NCBI GenBank assembly: GCA_012728015.1
Contig: JAAYFY010000037.1
Span: 124,001 to 188,000, forward strand
DNA from: Clostridiaceae bacterium
GTDB taxonomy: Bacteria > Bacillota > Clostridia > DSM-8532
DNA length: 64,000 bases
Direction: 5' to 3'
The position numbers and the translations under genes are program-made. The notes below the pieces were generated by a model, which saw only the letters and a program-made list of their open reading frames with translations, was not told where the DNA came from and did no database searches. Each line of letters starts with the position of its first letter. The stretch's first letter is position 1. Positions 4,812 to 43,663 of this stretch are shown here, piece after piece.

Positions 4812-5122
4812 CAAACCCTACCGAATACTGTAAATAAAGGCTATGACAAGAAGGAGTAGGATGCGTCCAGGGTTCCTAAAGAGAGTTCCCGGCTGGTGAG
4901 AGGGGCAGGAAACGGGCATCCGAATACAACTTTGAGCCGCGCACCAAACGCCTGGTTTGGCCAGTAGGCTGCGCCGGATGCACCCGTTAGCGTGCCGGAG
5001 TATAAGCATGGATTTACCATGCCGTACTCGCTGAGGCCTTTTCCCGCGAGGGAAAGGGTGAACTGGGGTGGTAACGCGAAGTTGAAGGCTTTCGTCCTCA
5101 TGGAAGGATGATGGCCTTTTTT
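4812..5122 (+). promoter_or_regulatory. T-box leader (tyrosine) with terminator
   Basis: The leader carries the T-box CTGGGGTGGTAACGCG (about 5063-5078), which pairs with the uncharged tRNA 3' end. The specifier region GAATACAAC (about 4921-4929) offers UAC, a tyrosine codon, which matches the downstream tyrS. A terminator hairpin (5085-5118) ends in TTTTTT. When tRNA-Tyr is uncharged the antiterminator forms and tyrS is transcribed. About 110 nt of the 3' half are nearly identical to the metG T-box at 14.9-15.1 kb on the other strand. Confidence 0.92.
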
Positions 5123-5238
5123 ATTTCGCAATTTGCCTGACTACCATGTTCGGGCGGACTGTCCTGTTGGCCGGGCGCTTGTTAAAGCCTTTTTACAGGC
5201 ATTCTGTGTGGGATTAATGTAGCAAGGAGTTGTTTGAA

Positions 5239-6453
5239 ATGTTGCCTGTTGATGAACAAATACAGATCATAGCCAAGGGAGCGGCAGAGATTATCGATCC
5301 GGAAGAGCTTAAGAAGAAGCTGCTCGTTTCCAAAGATAAGGGGAAGCCACTTATAGTAAAGCTTGGCCTTGATCCTACCGCCCCCGACCTCCACCTGGGC
5401 CATGCGGTGGTGTTAAGAAAGATCAGGCAGATACAGGAACTGGGCCATCGGGCAGTTATCATCCTGGGTGATTTCACAGCCATGATCGGTGACCCGTCGG
5501 GGAGATCGAAAACCAGGAAACCTCTGACCCACGGGGAGACCCTGGAAAACGCCGCAACATATAAGGACCAGCTTTTCAGGATACTGATGCCCGAGAGGAC
5601 CGAGATACGCTTTAACAGCCAATGGCTTTCCAAAATGGACCTTGCCTCATTGTTGGAGCTTGCCGGAAAAACAACCGTCGCAAGGATCCTGGAGCGCGAT
5701 GACTTCAAGTCAAGACTTGATTCAAACCTGACCATAGGGCTGCACGAACTCTTTTATCCGCTCATGCAGGCTTATGATTCAGTGGCAATCAGGGCTGATA
5801 TCGAGATAGGCGGAACCGACCAGAGGTTTAATATACTGATGGGACGGGATATCCAGAAGCATTACGGTCTGGAGAGCCAGGTTGCGCTGTTCATGCCCAT
5901 CCTGGAGGGAACAGACGGTGTTGAGAAGATGAGCAAAAGCCTTGGAAACAGCATCGGCATCGATGAGGAGCCAAATACCATGTTTGAAAAGGTCATGACC
6001 ATCCCGGATAATTTGATCATACGGTATTTCCAACTGTGTACCGATCTTCATCCGGATGAAGTGGATCAATACAGGGAGAGGCTGGATAGGGGAGAAAACC
6101 CGAGGGATATAAAGGCTTGCCTCGCCCATGAGATCGTAAGGCTGTACCATGGCGGGGATGCTGCTGACAGCGCCATGGACCATTTCAATACCGTCTTCCG
6201 CGACAGGCAATATCCCAGGGATATGATGAGTCTGGATACAGCCCCGTTCACCGATGACCAGGGGAATACCGACCTGGTAAGGGTTCTTGTGCAAGCTGGA
6301 TTCACGTCCAGTTCCAGCGAGGCAAGACGCCTTATCCTTCAGGACGGCGTAAGGCTGAACTCTGAAAGGGTGGATCGATTCAGGATACCTGTCAGGGACG
6401 GGGATGTGATCCAGGCTGGGAAAAAGCATTTTGTCAGGCTAAACAAGGCATAG
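5239..6453 (+). CDS. tyrS: Tyrosyl-tRNA synthetase
   Basis: A class I aminoacyl-tRNA synthetase of 404 residues that charges tRNA-Tyr in the cytosol. It shows the HIGH-type motif HLGH (52-55), GDPSGRS in the nucleotide-binding fold, the tyrosine-site segment DQRFNILMGRD, and KMSKS (230-234). The KMSKS form resembles the TyrZ clade more than the KFGKT type. A C-terminal S4-like RNA-binding domain (about 340-404) contains SSSEARRLILQDGVRLN. The start at ATG 5239 sits 9 nt after AAGGAG; a TTG at 5230 would be too close. Expression is governed by the T-box upstream. Confidence 0.95.
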   Translation: MLPVDEQIQIIAKGAAEIIDPEELKKKLLVSKDKGKPLIVKLGLDPTAPDLHLGHAVVLRKIRQIQELGHRAVIILGDFTAMIGDPSGRSKTRKPLTHGETLENAATYKDQLFRILMPERTEIRFNSQWLSKMDLASLLELAGKTTVARILERDDFKSRLDSNLTIGLHELFYPLMQAYDSVAIRADIEIGGTDQRFNILMGRDIQKHYGLESQVALFMPILEGTDGVEKMSKSLGNSIGIDEEPNTMFEKVMTIPDNLIIRYFQLCTDLHPDEVDQYRERLDRGENPRDIKACLAHEIVRLYHGGDAADSAMDHFNTVFRDRQYPRDMMSLDTAPFTDDQGNTDLVRVLVQAGFTSSSSEARRLILQDGVRLNSERVDRFRIPVRDGDVIQAGKKHFVRLNKA

Positions 6454-37920: not shown

Positions 37921-39162
37921 ATGAAACTGCTGGACAAGCTGCAGATACTGGCCGATTCGGCAAAATACGATGTTTCGTGCTCCTCCAGCGGAAGCAGCAG
38001 GAGCAACCGCCCGGGAGGTGTTGGCAACGCGTCCCTTCCCGGGATTTGCCATAGCTGGGCCGACGACGGCCGCTGTATCTCCCTGCTCAAGGTCCTTTTC
38101 ACCAATGTGTGCATCTACGATTGCAAATATTGTGTCAACCGCAGTTCCAACGATATAAGGCGCGCAAGCTTCACGCCCGACGAGCTCTGCGAGCTGATCA
38201 TCCAGTTCTACAGGCGCAACTATATAGAGGGTCTTTTCTTAAGCTCTGCGGTCATCAGAAATCCGGATTATACCATGGAGCTTATGATAAAGGCATTGAG
38301 AAAGCTGCGCCATGAATACCGTTTCAACAGCTACATCCACATAAAATCCATACCCGGCGCAGACATGAGGCTGGTCCATGAGGCAGGGCTCCTTGCCGAC
38401 AGGATGAGCATAAATATTGAGCTGCCGTCGGTGTCGGGCCTTAAGCTTCTGGCTCCCCAGAAAGATCCGGGTTCCATCCTTGAGCCCATGGGCTATGTCA
38501 GGGAGCGGATCATGGAATCCAGGGAACTTGTACTTTATAAAAAGCCGCAGTCATTCGTTCCTGCCGGCCAGTCAACCCAGCTTATTATCGGGGCAACTCC
38601 CGACAGCGACCTGAAAATCCTGACCCTCACCGAGCGCCTGTACCGGAATTACCAGCTAAAGAGGGTCTATTATTCGGCCTATGTTCCGGTAAACAGCGAC
38701 GAGAACCTTCCATCCATATATACCAGCCCGCCCCTTCTGAGAGAACATCGCATCTATCAGGCAGACTGGCTTTTGCGTTTCTATGGCTTTAGAGCCGGTG
38801 AACTTCTGGATGAGAATCATCCAAACTTTGATATCCACCTGGATCCCAAATGCGACTGGGCTTTAAGGCATCTCGACCAGTTTCCCGTTGAGATTAACAA
38901 GGCCCCGCTGGAAATGCTGCTCAGGGTTCCGGGGATCGGCTACAGGATGGCCGCGAAAATCATCAGGGCGAGAAGGATAGGCCCTTTGGGTTTTGAAGAC
39001 CTCAAGCGCATGAGGGTTGTACTGAAACGCGCCCGTTATTTTATAACCTGCAGTGGCAGGTATTACGGCGGAATTGATCCGGACTCAGGGCTGCTCTACC
39101 AGTTGCTTTCCAACAAGGCAGACAACAAGGTGATGGCAGGGCAGATTTCCATGTTTGGATGA
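37921..39162 (+). CDS. Putative DNA modification/repair radical SAM protein (TIGR03916-like)
   Basis: 413 residues. The radical SAM motif is CIYDCKYC (Cys 64, 68, 71). A characteristic Ser/Gly-rich CSSSGSS stretch and GICHSWADDGRC precede it (extra Cys 20, 43, 52). At the C-terminus a helix-hairpin-helix (PGIGYRMAAKIIRARRIG, about 339-356) implies nucleic-acid binding. The family is linked in many genomes to a DUF4130 protein, here the next gene, and to uracil-DNA-glycosylase-like proteins. The reaction is unknown to me. ATG 37921 follows TGGAGG. Confidence 0.9.
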   Translation: MKLLDKLQILADSAKYDVSCSSSGSSRSNRPGGVGNASLPGICHSWADDGRCISLLKVLFTNVCIYDCKYCVNRSSNDIRRASFTPDELCELIIQFYRRNYIEGLFLSSAVIRNPDYTMELMIKALRKLRHEYRFNSYIHIKSIPGADMRLVHEAGLLADRMSINIELPSVSGLKLLAPQKDPGSILEPMGYVRERIMESRELVLYKKPQSFVPAGQSTQLIIGATPDSDLKILTLTERLYRNYQLKRVYYSAYVPVNSDENLPSIYTSPPLLREHRIYQADWLLRFYGFRAGELLDENHPNFDIHLDPKCDWALRHLDQFPVEINKAPLEMLLRVPGIGYRMAAKIIRARRIGPLGFEDLKRMRVVLKRARYFITCSGRYYGGIDPDSGLLYQLLSNKADNKVMAGQISMFG

Positions 39163-39199
39163 CAAGATAGAATATGTATTACGGCAGAGGGATGATCAT

Positions 39200-39931
39200 A
39201 TGATATATGTTACCGACGGAAGCTTTGAAGGTATTCTTGCAGCTGTATTCGAGGCCTTCAGGAACAGGGAGGATCCCGAGGAAATAACACTGGGCGGAGA
39301 TTTTCAGCTTTCCATTGCCGCCGGGATAAGGGAAATTCCCACCGACACCGGGAAGTCAGACAGGGTCTGGCGCGGCGTGCAGAACAGAATCTCGGAGAAA
39401 TCCCTTGAGGATTTATATCTGGCATATTTAAGTGAACATCCCCGGGTTGGGCTGTACATCTACCGCTATATCAAGCTTGGCCTTAAACTCGGCCATAAAG
39501 TCGAGGAGTACCTGCAACACCCGGATGTTCAGGCAATTTACGATCTTAGCCGCAGGGTGTCAAAGGAAGTCCACCTGTTCCTTGGCATCCTGAGGTTCAA
39601 GAAGCTGAAGAATGGCGTTTTCTATGCCTGTTATGAGCCCGATAACAATATTACCCAACTGATCACCGAGCATTTTGCCAGTCGCCTTTCAGACCAGGCC
39701 TGGATCATCCACGACAGGAAAAGGGATGTATTTGCCCTCCACAACGGGGAGGAGGTTGTCTTCACAACAGGTCTTTCAGGCATTGTCCATGAAGATTGCG
39801 AAGAGGAGTACGAAGAGCTCTGGAGAAGGTACTTTACCACCATCGCCATAGAAAGCCGTAAAAACCTTAAGCTTCAGAGGTCCTTCATGCCCCGCCGGTA
39901 CTGGAAGCACCTGACAGAAAAGCAGTTGTAG
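39200..39931 (+). CDS. TIGR03915/DUF4130 putative DNA repair protein
   Basis: 243 residues. MIYVTDGSFEGILAAVFEAF at the N-terminus and RYWKHLTEKQL at the C-terminus are typical of DUF4130. The central segment EKSLEDLYLAYLSEHPRVGL is also conserved. In other bacteria this domain is fused to a uracil-DNA-glycosylase domain and paired with the preceding radical SAM protein; here it stands alone without the UDG part. The ATG at 39200 has GAGGG 8 nt upstream; a TTG at 39155 would overlap the upstream gene. It probably works with the radical SAM enzyme on damaged or modified DNA. Confidence 0.87.
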   Translation: MIYVTDGSFEGILAAVFEAFRNREDPEEITLGGDFQLSIAAGIREIPTDTGKSDRVWRGVQNRISEKSLEDLYLAYLSEHPRVGLYIYRYIKLGLKLGHKVEEYLQHPDVQAIYDLSRRVSKEVHLFLGILRFKKLKNGVFYACYEPDNNITQLITEHFASRLSDQAWIIHDRKRDVFALHNGEEVVFTTGLSGIVHEDCEEEYEELWRRYFTTIAIESRKNLKLQRSFMPRRYWKHLTEKQL

Positions 39932-40061
39932 GTTTTATGTGTCGATGTTAATCGGGTAAGGGATCGACTTAATAGCATCCGACGCAGGGGGCTGCAGGCC
40001 AAAACGGCTCCAAAAATGCATTTAATGGTGATTATGTCGGTTTTTTAGCAGTATTAACATG
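39932..40061. other. Intergenic stretch before the ncRNA promoter
   Basis: About 130 bases with no ORF, RNA motif or clear terminator that I can recognise. A TTTTTT run at 40041-40046 follows only weak dyad symmetry. Confidence 0.4.
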
Positions 40062-40090
40062 TTGAGAGGCCTTTTTGGTTATGATATAAT
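40062..40090 (+). promoter_or_regulatory. Promoter of the 40.1-kb ncRNA
   Basis: TTGAGA (40062-40067), 17-nt spacer, TATAAT (40085-40090) with an extended TGA just before the -10 box. The start is expected near 40097. Confidence 0.85.
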
Positions 40091-40096
40091 ATGCGT

Positions 40097-40332
40097 AGAA
40101 TCCTGAGGTGTACGTGATACCTGTAAAATTGAACCTGCTATAATTGACACGGGAGCTGGAAGTTTAGCCACGTAGTACGGGCCGCAAGCTAATTCCGTCA
40201 CGAAAGTGACGGCGGCGGAAGTACCAAATGGTTAACAGGCGCCCACCTGGTTGAGTACCAGGTGTCAATATACAGGAAACGGCACCTTGGGAGTTATTTG
40301 TTTTAGGCTGTTCCTTGCGAACAGCCTTTTTT
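40097..40332 (+). ncRNA. Structured non-coding RNA candidate, about 235 nt, family unassigned
   Basis: The transcript has its own promoter and terminator and no plausible ORF. Predicted helices: AGGT/ACCT near the 5' end (40106-40121); a long-range pairing ATTGACAC (40143-40150) with GTGTCAAT (40262-40269); a perfect hairpin CCGTCAC-GAAA-GTGACGG (40195-40212); and CACCTGGT (40244-40251) with ACCAGGTG (40257-40264). GTAC/GTAC flanks and GCCGC/GCGGC around the GAAA hairpin suggest a multi-branched fold. It is not a tRNA, tmRNA, SRP RNA, RNase P RNA or T-box. The raiA motif RNA of Clostridia is a possible family, 6S RNA a less likely one; neither can be confirmed by eye. Confidence 0.7.
40305..40332 (+). 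terminator. Intrinsic terminator of the ncRNA
   Basis: AGGCTGTT (40305-40312) pairs with AACAGCCT (40320-40327), followed by TTTTTT. Confidence 0.92.
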
Positions 40333-40357
40333 ATTGTTGGTGAGAGGTTGGAGGTGA

Positions 40358-40384
40358 GATTGCCACGCTTCGCTTGCAATGACA
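40358..40384 (-). repeat. Inverted copy of the TGTCATTGC-type repeat
   Basis: On the minus strand TGTCATTGCAAGCGAAGCG is followed by TGGCAATC, close to the copies at 12.8-13.1 kb. It lies between the ncRNA terminator and a convergent gene. Confidence 0.65.
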
Positions 40385-40419
40385 GCCTGGGTATTGCTTT
40401 GCGATGGGTTTTGACGAGA

Positions 40420-41406
40420 TCAGCGAATGGACCTGATCATGCTGTCGATATGGGTGGCAATGCTCTTTGGATCTTCCATATGGATGGGCTCAGCGCCGTC
40501 CTGCAGTTCCACCATCCGGACCCCGGGGGCCAGATAGAGGTTGTCCATGGACAGAGCCCGGTAGATGCGCGCGGCTTGCCGCGCCGTATAGTCGGAATTG
40601 CCGTTTCTCACCCAGTGCCGGGTAATTGCTTCCTCACTGGAAAACAGTATGGTGAGCGGTACGTTGGGGAAACCGCCGGATTCCCGAATTTCCGCCAGGC
40701 TTTTCTCCATCATCGAGTGTTCAACAGTCGAAGCGGCATACACCGCCGGAGAATTATGGAATTCCGCAATGAGCTTTCCATATTTATATTGTCCCAGCTG
40801 GCGTTTATAGGGCGAAAGAGACCGGAAAAGGCCGGTTTTTGCAAGGGTCATACGCCTCTTAGCGGTTTTTTCAGGGAATTTAAAATCTTTCAATTCGGTA
40901 AGGGAAGCGATCCAATGCTTGTAATCCACCGGAACGGGGTTGAACAGAACAACGCCGGCAACCAGGTGGGGTCTGGTGCAGGTATAGTGGTGGGCGTATA
41001 CCGAAGCACAGCCGTCAGCGACAAGTATGATGGGCTTTTTAATGCGTTCAAACTTGATTATGGTATCAATGATCCCGGAAATATCAGAGGCGGATCCGGA
41101 GGCCTGGGATCCTGAACTCCAGCCGTAGCCGGGTCTTTCAAAAGTGATAACCCGGGCATTCTGTATCTCGTTCTGGACCAGCCACCACTCCATGGATGAG
41201 CTTCCGCAGTTATGGAGTATGATTACCGCAGGATCTCCGCCTTTGCCTTTTGCCCGGTAGAAAAGCTTCATTCCGCTGCTGTCCAGGAATTTTCCTTCAT
41301 CGGAGGGCTGTTTGTGCCACCTTTTATTGATCACCCTGCTGATGACCATATAGGCGGCCAGGACAATCAGAATTCCGCCGGAACAAATCAAAACAACCAG
41401 TCCCAT
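40420..41406 (-). CDS. Membrane-anchored alpha/beta-hydrolase-fold protein lacking the nucleophile
   Basis: 328 residues. An N-terminal transmembrane segment (GLVVLICSGGILIVLAAYMV) precedes an alpha/beta-hydrolase domain: VIILHNCGSSSMEWW for the oxyanion strand, FERPGYGWSSG, and LVADGCASVYAHH at the nucleophile elbow. Aligned to the usual LVGHSMGG, the catalytic Ser position is Gly132, with Cys133 next to it. The HG dipeptide is also changed to HN. It may be a non-catalytic or unusual hydrolase. ATG 41406 follows AGAGGAG; monocistronic. Confidence 0.8.
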   Translation of the reverse strand: MGLVVLICSGGILIVLAAYMVISRVINKRWHKQPSDEGKFLDSSGMKLFYRAKGKGGDPAVIILHNCGSSSMEWWLVQNEIQNARVITFERPGYGWSSGSQASGSASDISGIIDTIIKFERIKKPIILVADGCASVYAHHYTCTRPHLVAGVVLFNPVPVDYKHWIASLTELKDFKFPEKTAKRRMTLAKTGLFRSLSPYKRQLGQYKYGKLIAEFHNSPAVYAASTVEHSMMEKSLAEIRESGGFPNVPLTILFSSEEAITRHWVRNGNSDYTARQAARIYRALSMDNLYLAPGVRMVELQDGAEPIHMEDPKSIATHIDSMIRSIR

Positions 41407-41520
41407 AAACGCTGCTCCTCTGTCAGAAATACAATTTTTCTTCTTCCTTATTATGCTAACATACTGATCTGGTGTCATCAAGCACAGTGTCGAAAAATGA
41501 CAGCAAAGAGACTATGTTGT

Positions 41521-42639
41521 CTAAGGGCGGAGTATCTCGCGGAGCGTGTTTTCGAGGAACTCAACGCGCCCTTCAAGTTCTTTGATGCGGCTCTGGAGCA
41601 GATCCTTCTCATCAACGGGTTTCTCGAATCTGCCGCCGGCATAGGTCCTCCAGTCGAAAGGGAAACGCAGGCCGCTGCCGAAAATTATTGGCAGGTATGC
41701 GCAGGCAAAATTGATATCGTCCTTGCAATTGGAAATATACCTGCACCTTATGGGAGGGTTGGCCGCAGTCAGGTCAAACCGCGTTTCGGCAACCACCGCA
41801 GACGCATCAATATTCACCCGTGCCAGCAGCATATGGTTTTTGCAGGTCCTTACCACAGATGGGTAGTTATCCACCATAATCAGGCAGTCAAATCCCCTGG
41901 GTGAAGAAGGGCTGAAGATTTCCAGCCCCATTGAATACCTGTTGGCATTCGGATCAAACCTGTACAGGTAAGTGCTTTCATTGTCCTCCTCGCCGGACAA
42001 AAGCACGTAGACGAACCTTCCTTTTCCTGTTACGGCCTGCAGCCTTTTTGAAACTTTATGGGGAAACGGGGTGCTGGTCGGCTTCATGGTCTTTCCTTCC
42101 GAGGTGATGCGCCGGTGGACGAGGAGGCTTACATCCTGTATTTCGGTAAGGAAGAAGAGATGGGTTGAAGAGCCATCTGAACATACCGCATAGTCCTTGC
42201 AGCCCCTTGCTATGATCCCTTCCACCTCGGGCATGGTAAAACTTCCGTTCTCTATCCGCTGACAGGTAAGAAGCTGCTTGCGGTTATGGCTGACGATATA
42301 AAAAACATTTACGGCATTCTTTGATTCCGTGAGTGTAACCCCGTATGGCGCGCTGCCTGCAATTCGGCTTTCCAGGAGGACAATGGGCTCTTTCCGTTCC
42401 TCGCAGGCCCGTATGAAGAGCAGCCTTCCGGCATAGTCAACAAAGGATGCCCGTATGGTGTCGTCCGTGCTCATGGATATGGAAAAATCGGGGGCAGCGT
42501 TTTCTGAGAGCAAAAATGGCGGTCCCCAGTGGTTGTCGCTTTCCAACATGCTCATGAAAAGACCGTTCTTATACCATATGCAGTATGTAACACCCATACT
42601 GTTTTTTGCGACATGGCGCAGACTATCAATACACGGCAC
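41521..42639 (-). CDS. Unrecognised protein with beta-propeller-like repeats and C-terminal coiled coil
   Basis: About 372 residues; I do not recognise the family. Repeated short beta-strand patterns separated by turns (for example FSISMSTDDTIRASFVDYAG and HLFFLTEIQDVSLLVHRRI) suggest a propeller-like fold with no signal peptide. The last 35 residues (LLQSRIKELEGRVEFLENTL) form a heptad coiled coil, so it may oligomerise. I favour GTG 42639 because GAGGGG lies 9 nt before it; TTG 42648 directly abuts the site. It is divergent from the Cys-rich protein gene at 42800. Confidence 0.6.
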   Translation of the reverse strand: MPCIDSLRHVAKNSMGVTYCIWYKNGLFMSMLESDNHWGPPFLLSENAAPDFSISMSTDDTIRASFVDYAGRLLFIRACEERKEPIVLLESRIAGSAPYGVTLTESKNAVNVFYIVSHNRKQLLTCQRIENGSFTMPEVEGIIARGCKDYAVCSDGSSTHLFFLTEIQDVSLLVHRRITSEGKTMKPTSTPFPHKVSKRLQAVTGKGRFVYVLLSGEEDNESTYLYRFDPNANRYSMGLEIFSPSSPRGFDCLIMVDNYPSVVRTCKNHMLLARVNIDASAVVAETRFDLTAANPPIRCRYISNCKDDINFACAYLPIIFGSGLRFPFDWRTYAGGRFEKPVDEKDLLQSRIKELEGRVEFLENTLREILRP

Positions 42640-42799
42640 ATTGGACAACCCCTCAAGGATTTATTAGGCTGGTTTCCTCATATACTTATATGAATATTTA
42701 TTTATGTCCCCGGCTGAATATACCCTGCTGTAACCAAAACAACCCAAAGGCATATTATGTCAGTGTGAAGGCTAATATTTCGAATGGAGGACCGATGCA

Positions 42800-43663
42800 A
42801 TGAGTTGCAAAGATCAAATCGTTCCCGGACTTATCTGCGGCGAAGACATATGCAAGCTCCGTGAAGCCGTTTGCGTCCAAGTGGAAAAGGTATATGACAA
42901 TTGCCGCGAGAAAGACTGTATTGAGGATGCGGTTGTAGATTTTAACGAAAATGTCCAGGACCTCATCAATAATGCGGTAAAGGTAAAAACAAAGGATGCG
43001 GAGGTAGTGGCTGTATTTGCTGACCTGGAGCCCGTGCCGTTCAAAAGGGGATTCTTCACGGTGAATGTACGTTATCAGATCAAGGTAATGGTGGAATTCT
43101 GTTACAAGGATATGAACGGCAACCTGGTTTCCTCGTGCCCCAAGGTAGGGTTTGTAGGGTTTGAAAAAACGGTTATCCTCTTTGGCTCCGAGGGTAAGGT
43201 CAAGATCTTCAAGAGCATGGAACCCGCGCCCAATACGCCCCTTTATGGTGATTCCTGCAATGAGGCCTGCGGCGGCTCACTTGTGGAGCAGGATAACCTG
43301 CCCAATGTCAAGGTTGAGGTCGCGGAACCCCTGGTTTTGAACACGAGGGTCAAGAGGGTACATCATCACCGTCACCGCGTCTGCGATGAGGAAGACAATA
43401 ATGCCGAAAGCATTATTGTCCCGCAGAGAAGGGTTGTTGTCACGCTAGGCTTATTCTCCATAATCAAGCTTGTACGCCTGGTGCAGCTCCTTATCCCGGC
43501 GTTCAATTTCTGCTATCCTAACAAGGAATGCATAGCTTCCACCAACGAGGAGCCCTGCGAGATTTTTGACACCATTGAATTCCCTCTTGATCAGTTCTTC
43601 CCGCCGCAGAAGTTCGATTTTCCGGCAGAAGATGAATTGTGCGAAGATGTCAAGAAACGGTAA
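42800..43663 (+). CDS. Cys-rich protein of unknown function, possibly spore-coat-like
   Basis: 287 residues with about 16 cysteines, many spaced in the first 40 residues (MSCKDQIVPGLICGEDICKL, then VCVQVEKVYDNC and REKDC). A beta-rich middle (FFTVNVRYQIKVMVEFCY) is followed by a His-rich RVHHHRHRVC stretch, a hydrophobic segment (RRVVVTLGLFSIIKLVRLVQ) and an acidic tail. I recall similar proteins only as uncharacterised clostridial proteins; cysteine and VYDxC patterns recall spore coat or exosporium proteins, but that is a guess. Start ATG 42800 follows GGAGG. Monocistronic, with a terminator after it. Confidence 0.6.
   Translation: MSCKDQIVPGLICGEDICKLREAVCVQVEKVYDNCREKDCIEDAVVDFNENVQDLINNAVKVKTKDAEVVAVFADLEPVPFKRGFFTVNVRYQIKVMVEFCYKDMNGNLVSSCPKVGFVGFEKTVILFGSEGKVKIFKSMEPAPNTPLYGDSCNEACGGSLVEQDNLPNVKVEVAEPLVLNTRVKRVHHHRHRVCDEEDNNAESIIVPQRRVVVTLGLFSIIKLVRLVQLLIPAFNFCYPNKECIASTNEEPCEIFDTIEFPLDQFFPPQKFDFPAEDELCEDVKKR

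Follow-up and report, generated by a model that had tools for sequence, protein, structure and literature searches.

The stretch of DNA analysed here (the window) comprises 64,000 nucleotides of a Clostridiaceae genome and carries, on its forward strand, a stand-alone RNA gene with its own control elements (Table 1). The promoter matches the sigma-A consensus at 11 of 12 positions, with a 17 nt spacer and an extended -10 element (TG at 40082–40083), and a strong terminator closes the gene; both agree with the description given in an earlier sequence-only reading of this DNA. Of the 28 other homologues examined, all but L008 have a promoter with the same spacing and 9–11 of 12 matches in a comparable position, and hairpin-plus-T terminators occupy the same place in most homologues of genera g1 and g2. 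The predicted promoter and terminator, the first of them conserved, point to an independent transcription unit. As had also been noted, there is no plausible ORF on the + strand across the RNA region. The downstream gene (40420–41481) lies on the - strand, convergent with the RNA gene, and the RNA is therefore a stand-alone gene, in line with the trans-acting role that had been preferred over a riboswitch. Directly upstream (37921–39931, +), two genes encode a putative DNA-repair pair, a radical SAM protein of the TIGR03916 family and its partner, TIGR03915/DUF4130.

Table 1. Features of the RNA gene and its control elements, in window coordinates
Feature	Position	Strand	Remark
Sigma-A-type promoter, TTGAGA (40062–40067), 17 nt, TATAAT (40085–40090)	40062–40090	+	
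6S RNA (ssrS / bsrA type)	40097–40297	+	RF00013 and independent model; predicted 5' end about 40097
Closing stem, 5' strand	40101–40114	+	Partner 40280–40292
P2 (downstream duplex), 5' strand	40120–40123	+	Partner CAGG 40273–40276
Predicted product-RNA template, 5' central bubble	40125–40138	+	Core GAACC the same in all 30 homologues
Distal 5' central bubble, ATTGACAC	40143–40150	+	5' strand of predicted collapse helix
Apical arm of 6S RNA	40151–40244	+	Helices 4–8, each with compensatory changes
GAAA-loop apical hairpin, CCGTCAC-GAAA-GTGACGG	40195–40212	+	Caps apical arm
3' central-bubble hairpin, ACCTGG...CCAGGT (helix 9)	40245–40263	+	B. subtilis-type
GTGTCAAT	40262–40269	+	Predicted switch: P2 extension (free RNA) or collapse helix (template occupied)
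Closing stem, 3' strand	40280–40292	+	
Intrinsic terminator	40305–40333	+	9-bp stem 40305–40327, then T-run

6S RNA is a well-known bacterial RNA that mimics an open promoter and keeps RNA polymerase in reserve under nutrient scarcity. The RNA gene of the window is an ordinary 6S RNA of the B. subtilis type and thus belongs to a known family. An Rfam 15 scan of the whole window gave a match to RF00013 at 40097–40297 (+) with 67.6 bits (gathering score 46.4; E 3.4e-11), covering the model end to end (positions 1–187 of 187). Only one other match in the window exceeded its gathering score, a T-box at 4834–5102. The 6S match starts at the 5' end predicted from the promoter, 7 nt past the -10 element, and it finishes just 5' of the terminator. 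An independent covariance model, for which the genus of the window was excluded and 23 homologues from other genera were used, scored the same locus with 167.8 bits and found it as the single locus genome-wide. With either model, no second, 6S-2-like paralogue was detected at E up to 10 in this genome, which is 99.87% complete. The sequence-only reading had left the family unassigned, with a new class as one option, and had named a confident 6S match beforehand as an outcome that would refute this view; the covariance-model search returned precisely that match, and the view is abandoned.

The fold and its conservation lead to the same family. The 201-nt body has a predicted energy of -76.9 kcal/mol (z = -4.9), and none of 200 dinucleotide shuffles was as stable. 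RF00013 homologues are present in 55 of 61 related genomes. The suggested alignment and covariation test was performed with 30 homologues and a consensus structure of 53 pairs derived from the same alignment: 97.4% of the pair cells hold standard pairs, and 23 of the 53 pairs show compensatory changes. The covariation score was 0.339; shuffles gave 0.163 and slid controls no more than 0.092, and none of 500 shuffles and no slid control was comparable to the real alignment. The slid control favours the structure because the latter came from the same alignment, a weakness of which the independent Rfam match is free. Covariation supports each of the main elements, namely the closing stem (13 pairs, 99.0% of cells paired, compensatory changes in 4 pairs), P2, the apical arm and the 3' central-bubble hairpin (7 pairs, 99.0% of cells paired, compensatory changes in 2 pairs). 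P2 is extended by pairing of TTGA 40129–40132 with TCAA 40265–40268. The last hairpin is known in B. subtilis 6S-1 RNA (PMC8876501) and in lactic acid bacteria (PMC8414754). It is one of the two perfect hairpins that had been read directly from the letters, the other being the GAAA-loop hairpin that caps the apical arm. Compared with sister genera, most of this genus has a shorter apical hairpin, reduced to a stem with a GAAA tetraloop.

The 5' strand of the central bubble holds the predicted template for the product RNA (pRNA). Its core, GAACC[TG][GA]C, is found in 30 of 30 homologues, and the predicted product RNA is GCAGGUUCAA or GUAGGUUCAA in all of them except L015. In the window, the product RNA is predicted to be 5'-GCAGGUUCAAUUUU, starting opposite C40138 and templated leftwards. 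The predicted start falls at nt 42, close to the position near nt 40 in B. subtilis 6S-1. The product RNA of the latter, 5'-GUUCGGUCAAAACUA, shares with the predicted one the initial G and AA at positions 9/10 (PMC12005410). In contrast to the GG at positions 5/6 in B. subtilis, the predicted product RNA has GG at 4/5, and therefore the exact predicted start could be one base off; GG at 4/5 has been reported for E. coli and A. aeolicus and is the position in other verified product RNAs (PMC8414754).

Gene order adds to the picture. The 6S gene lies directly 3' of the DUF4130 gene in three relatives located via the DUF4130 protein (L032–L034), and the reading of translations placed it directly downstream of the pair, as in the genus of the window, in at least one sister-genus genome as well (L023). 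In a member of another family of the same order (L008), it adjoins a gene for a RarA/MgsA-type AAA ATPase, which matches the PRK13341 and RarA models best, with scores under the curated cut-offs. The neighbourhood of 6S and rarA has been described for Firmicutes, including lactic acid bacteria and B. subtilis (PMC8414754).

6S RNAs in general share little sequence identity, and it is thus conceivable that a new class of structured RNA resembles 6S RNA by chance. We think that this is highly improbable for the present gene, since such a look-alike would have to reproduce an end-to-end Rfam match over the curated score together with covariation of the 6S helices, the conserved product-RNA template and the 3' central-bubble hairpin, and would also have to fit with the RarA-type synteny seen in a relative and with the presence of only one candidate locus in a nearly complete genome. 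The raiA motif (RF03072), which had been offered as one possible identity, has a still smaller chance of being correct. It shares with this gene general traits, namely structure, a length of about 200 nt and a stand-alone position in a Firmicute, but it belongs to a different structure family, and a full-length 6S match stands in its place at 40097–40297. No raiA match reached the gathering score in the window, and none appeared among the permissive matches in 39700–40700 at E up to 10; the genome search at E <= 0.001 was also negative, which is weak evidence since no control genome matched either. The raiA identity is consequently rejected in favour of the 6S assignment. RefA9 (20.6 bits against a cut-off of 49) and suhB (17.4 against 41) overlapped only the terminator region, far under their cut-offs. 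A cis-regulatory leader, riboswitch or attenuator, might be imagined, as a structured 5' region precedes a terminator, but the opposite orientation of the next gene rejects it, no leader family matched the locus in the Rfam scan, and its probability is as negligible as that of raiA.

This analysis establishes to which family the RNA belongs, its structure and conservation, and its promoter and terminator. Beyond that, the working of the 6S RNA would follow the known biology of its family as regards polymerase binding, product-RNA synthesis and release. An RNA of about 200 nt would be made from its own housekeeping promoter and would adopt a rod fold whose central bubble mimics an open promoter, so that the sigma-A RNA polymerase would be sequestered under nutrient limitation. 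When NTPs are back, the polymerase would copy the 5' bubble strand from opposite C40138 into the short product RNA. This synthesis would open the P2 region and free GUGUCAAU (40262–40269) for pairing with AUUGACAC (40143–40150), and the resulting collapse of the bubble may help to eject the RNA. Taken as a whole, we are nearly certain of this explanation, in which the genome's only 6S RNA gene would provide family-typical polymerase sequestration and release driven by pRNA.

The third structure pointed out in the sequence-only reading, a long-range pairing, deserves separate treatment. The complementarity of ATTGACAC to GTGTCAAT can be read directly from the sequence and it stands; what does not hold is its simultaneous formation with both hairpins, because the GTGTCAAT segment mostly pairs with 40129–40132 in the predicted free state. 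All three structures nevertheless fit the 6S plan. The 5' bubble contains TTGA twice, the first copy being located within the product-RNA template, and in the predicted free RNA the UCAA of GUGUCAAU is mostly paired with this first copy and not with AUUGACAC. Masking of the first 9 nucleotides of the template in silico, as a stand-in for bound product RNA, let the second TTGA copy take the partner strand and raised the probability of the collapse helix from 0.08 to 0.99, a change matched by none of 20 shuffles. A central bubble collapse helix rearrangement is known in B. subtilis 6S-1 RNA, which the predicted behaviour on template masking resembles (PMC8876501). The ATTGACAC/GTGTCAAT pairing is thus probably the central bubble collapse helix, formed after product-RNA synthesis according to the folding model. 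No compensatory changes were seen in this helix among the 30 homologues because its GUGUCA strand is almost invariant, and hence the argument for it draws on folding energies and on the control with shuffled sequences.

Collapse-helix behaviour is predicted to some degree in 21 of the 30 homologues and is absent in nine. The potential of 40139–40150 and of the homologous stretch (alignment columns 45–56) to form the helix varies between genera of one family: the genus of the window and a large sister genus are predicted to be able to do so, and most sequences of other genera to be unable, although the partner strand GUGUCA is nearly invariant. From these foldings one might suspect that the 6S release switch itself varies within one bacterial family. 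We consider this rather unlikely; if true, two release mechanisms would exist among close relatives.

In comparison with B. subtilis 6S-1 RNA (bsrA, RF00013), the rod, the closing stem, the central bubble, the hairpin in its 3' strand and the apical arm are all shared. Further differences are that one 6S gene is found here instead of two, and that it is flanked by the TIGR03916/TIGR03915 pair in place of rarA. The 6S RNA of Clostridium acetobutylicum (sCAC1377) is likewise clostridial, with a canonical bubble and its own promoter and terminator, the features on which the likeness was judged; its expression has been demonstrated by Northern in that species (PMC3879012). An apparent orphan RNA gene has now received its name, and that lead is closed. 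The gain is small, a concrete prediction, in an uncultured lineage of Clostridia, of the product-RNA sequence and the collapse helix, together with a family-wide set of 6S RNAs with varying collapse-helix potential.

Two proteins encoded nearby, at 41521–42648 (-) and 42800–43663 (+), have no Pfam or NCBIfam match; by eye, a protein resembling the first is encoded near the 6S gene in two relatives (L016 and L023). The T-box leader at 4834–5102 (+; RF00230, 95.6 bits, cut-off 93) lies upstream of tyrS (5230–6453) and is an ordinary tyrosyl-tRNA synthetase T-box.
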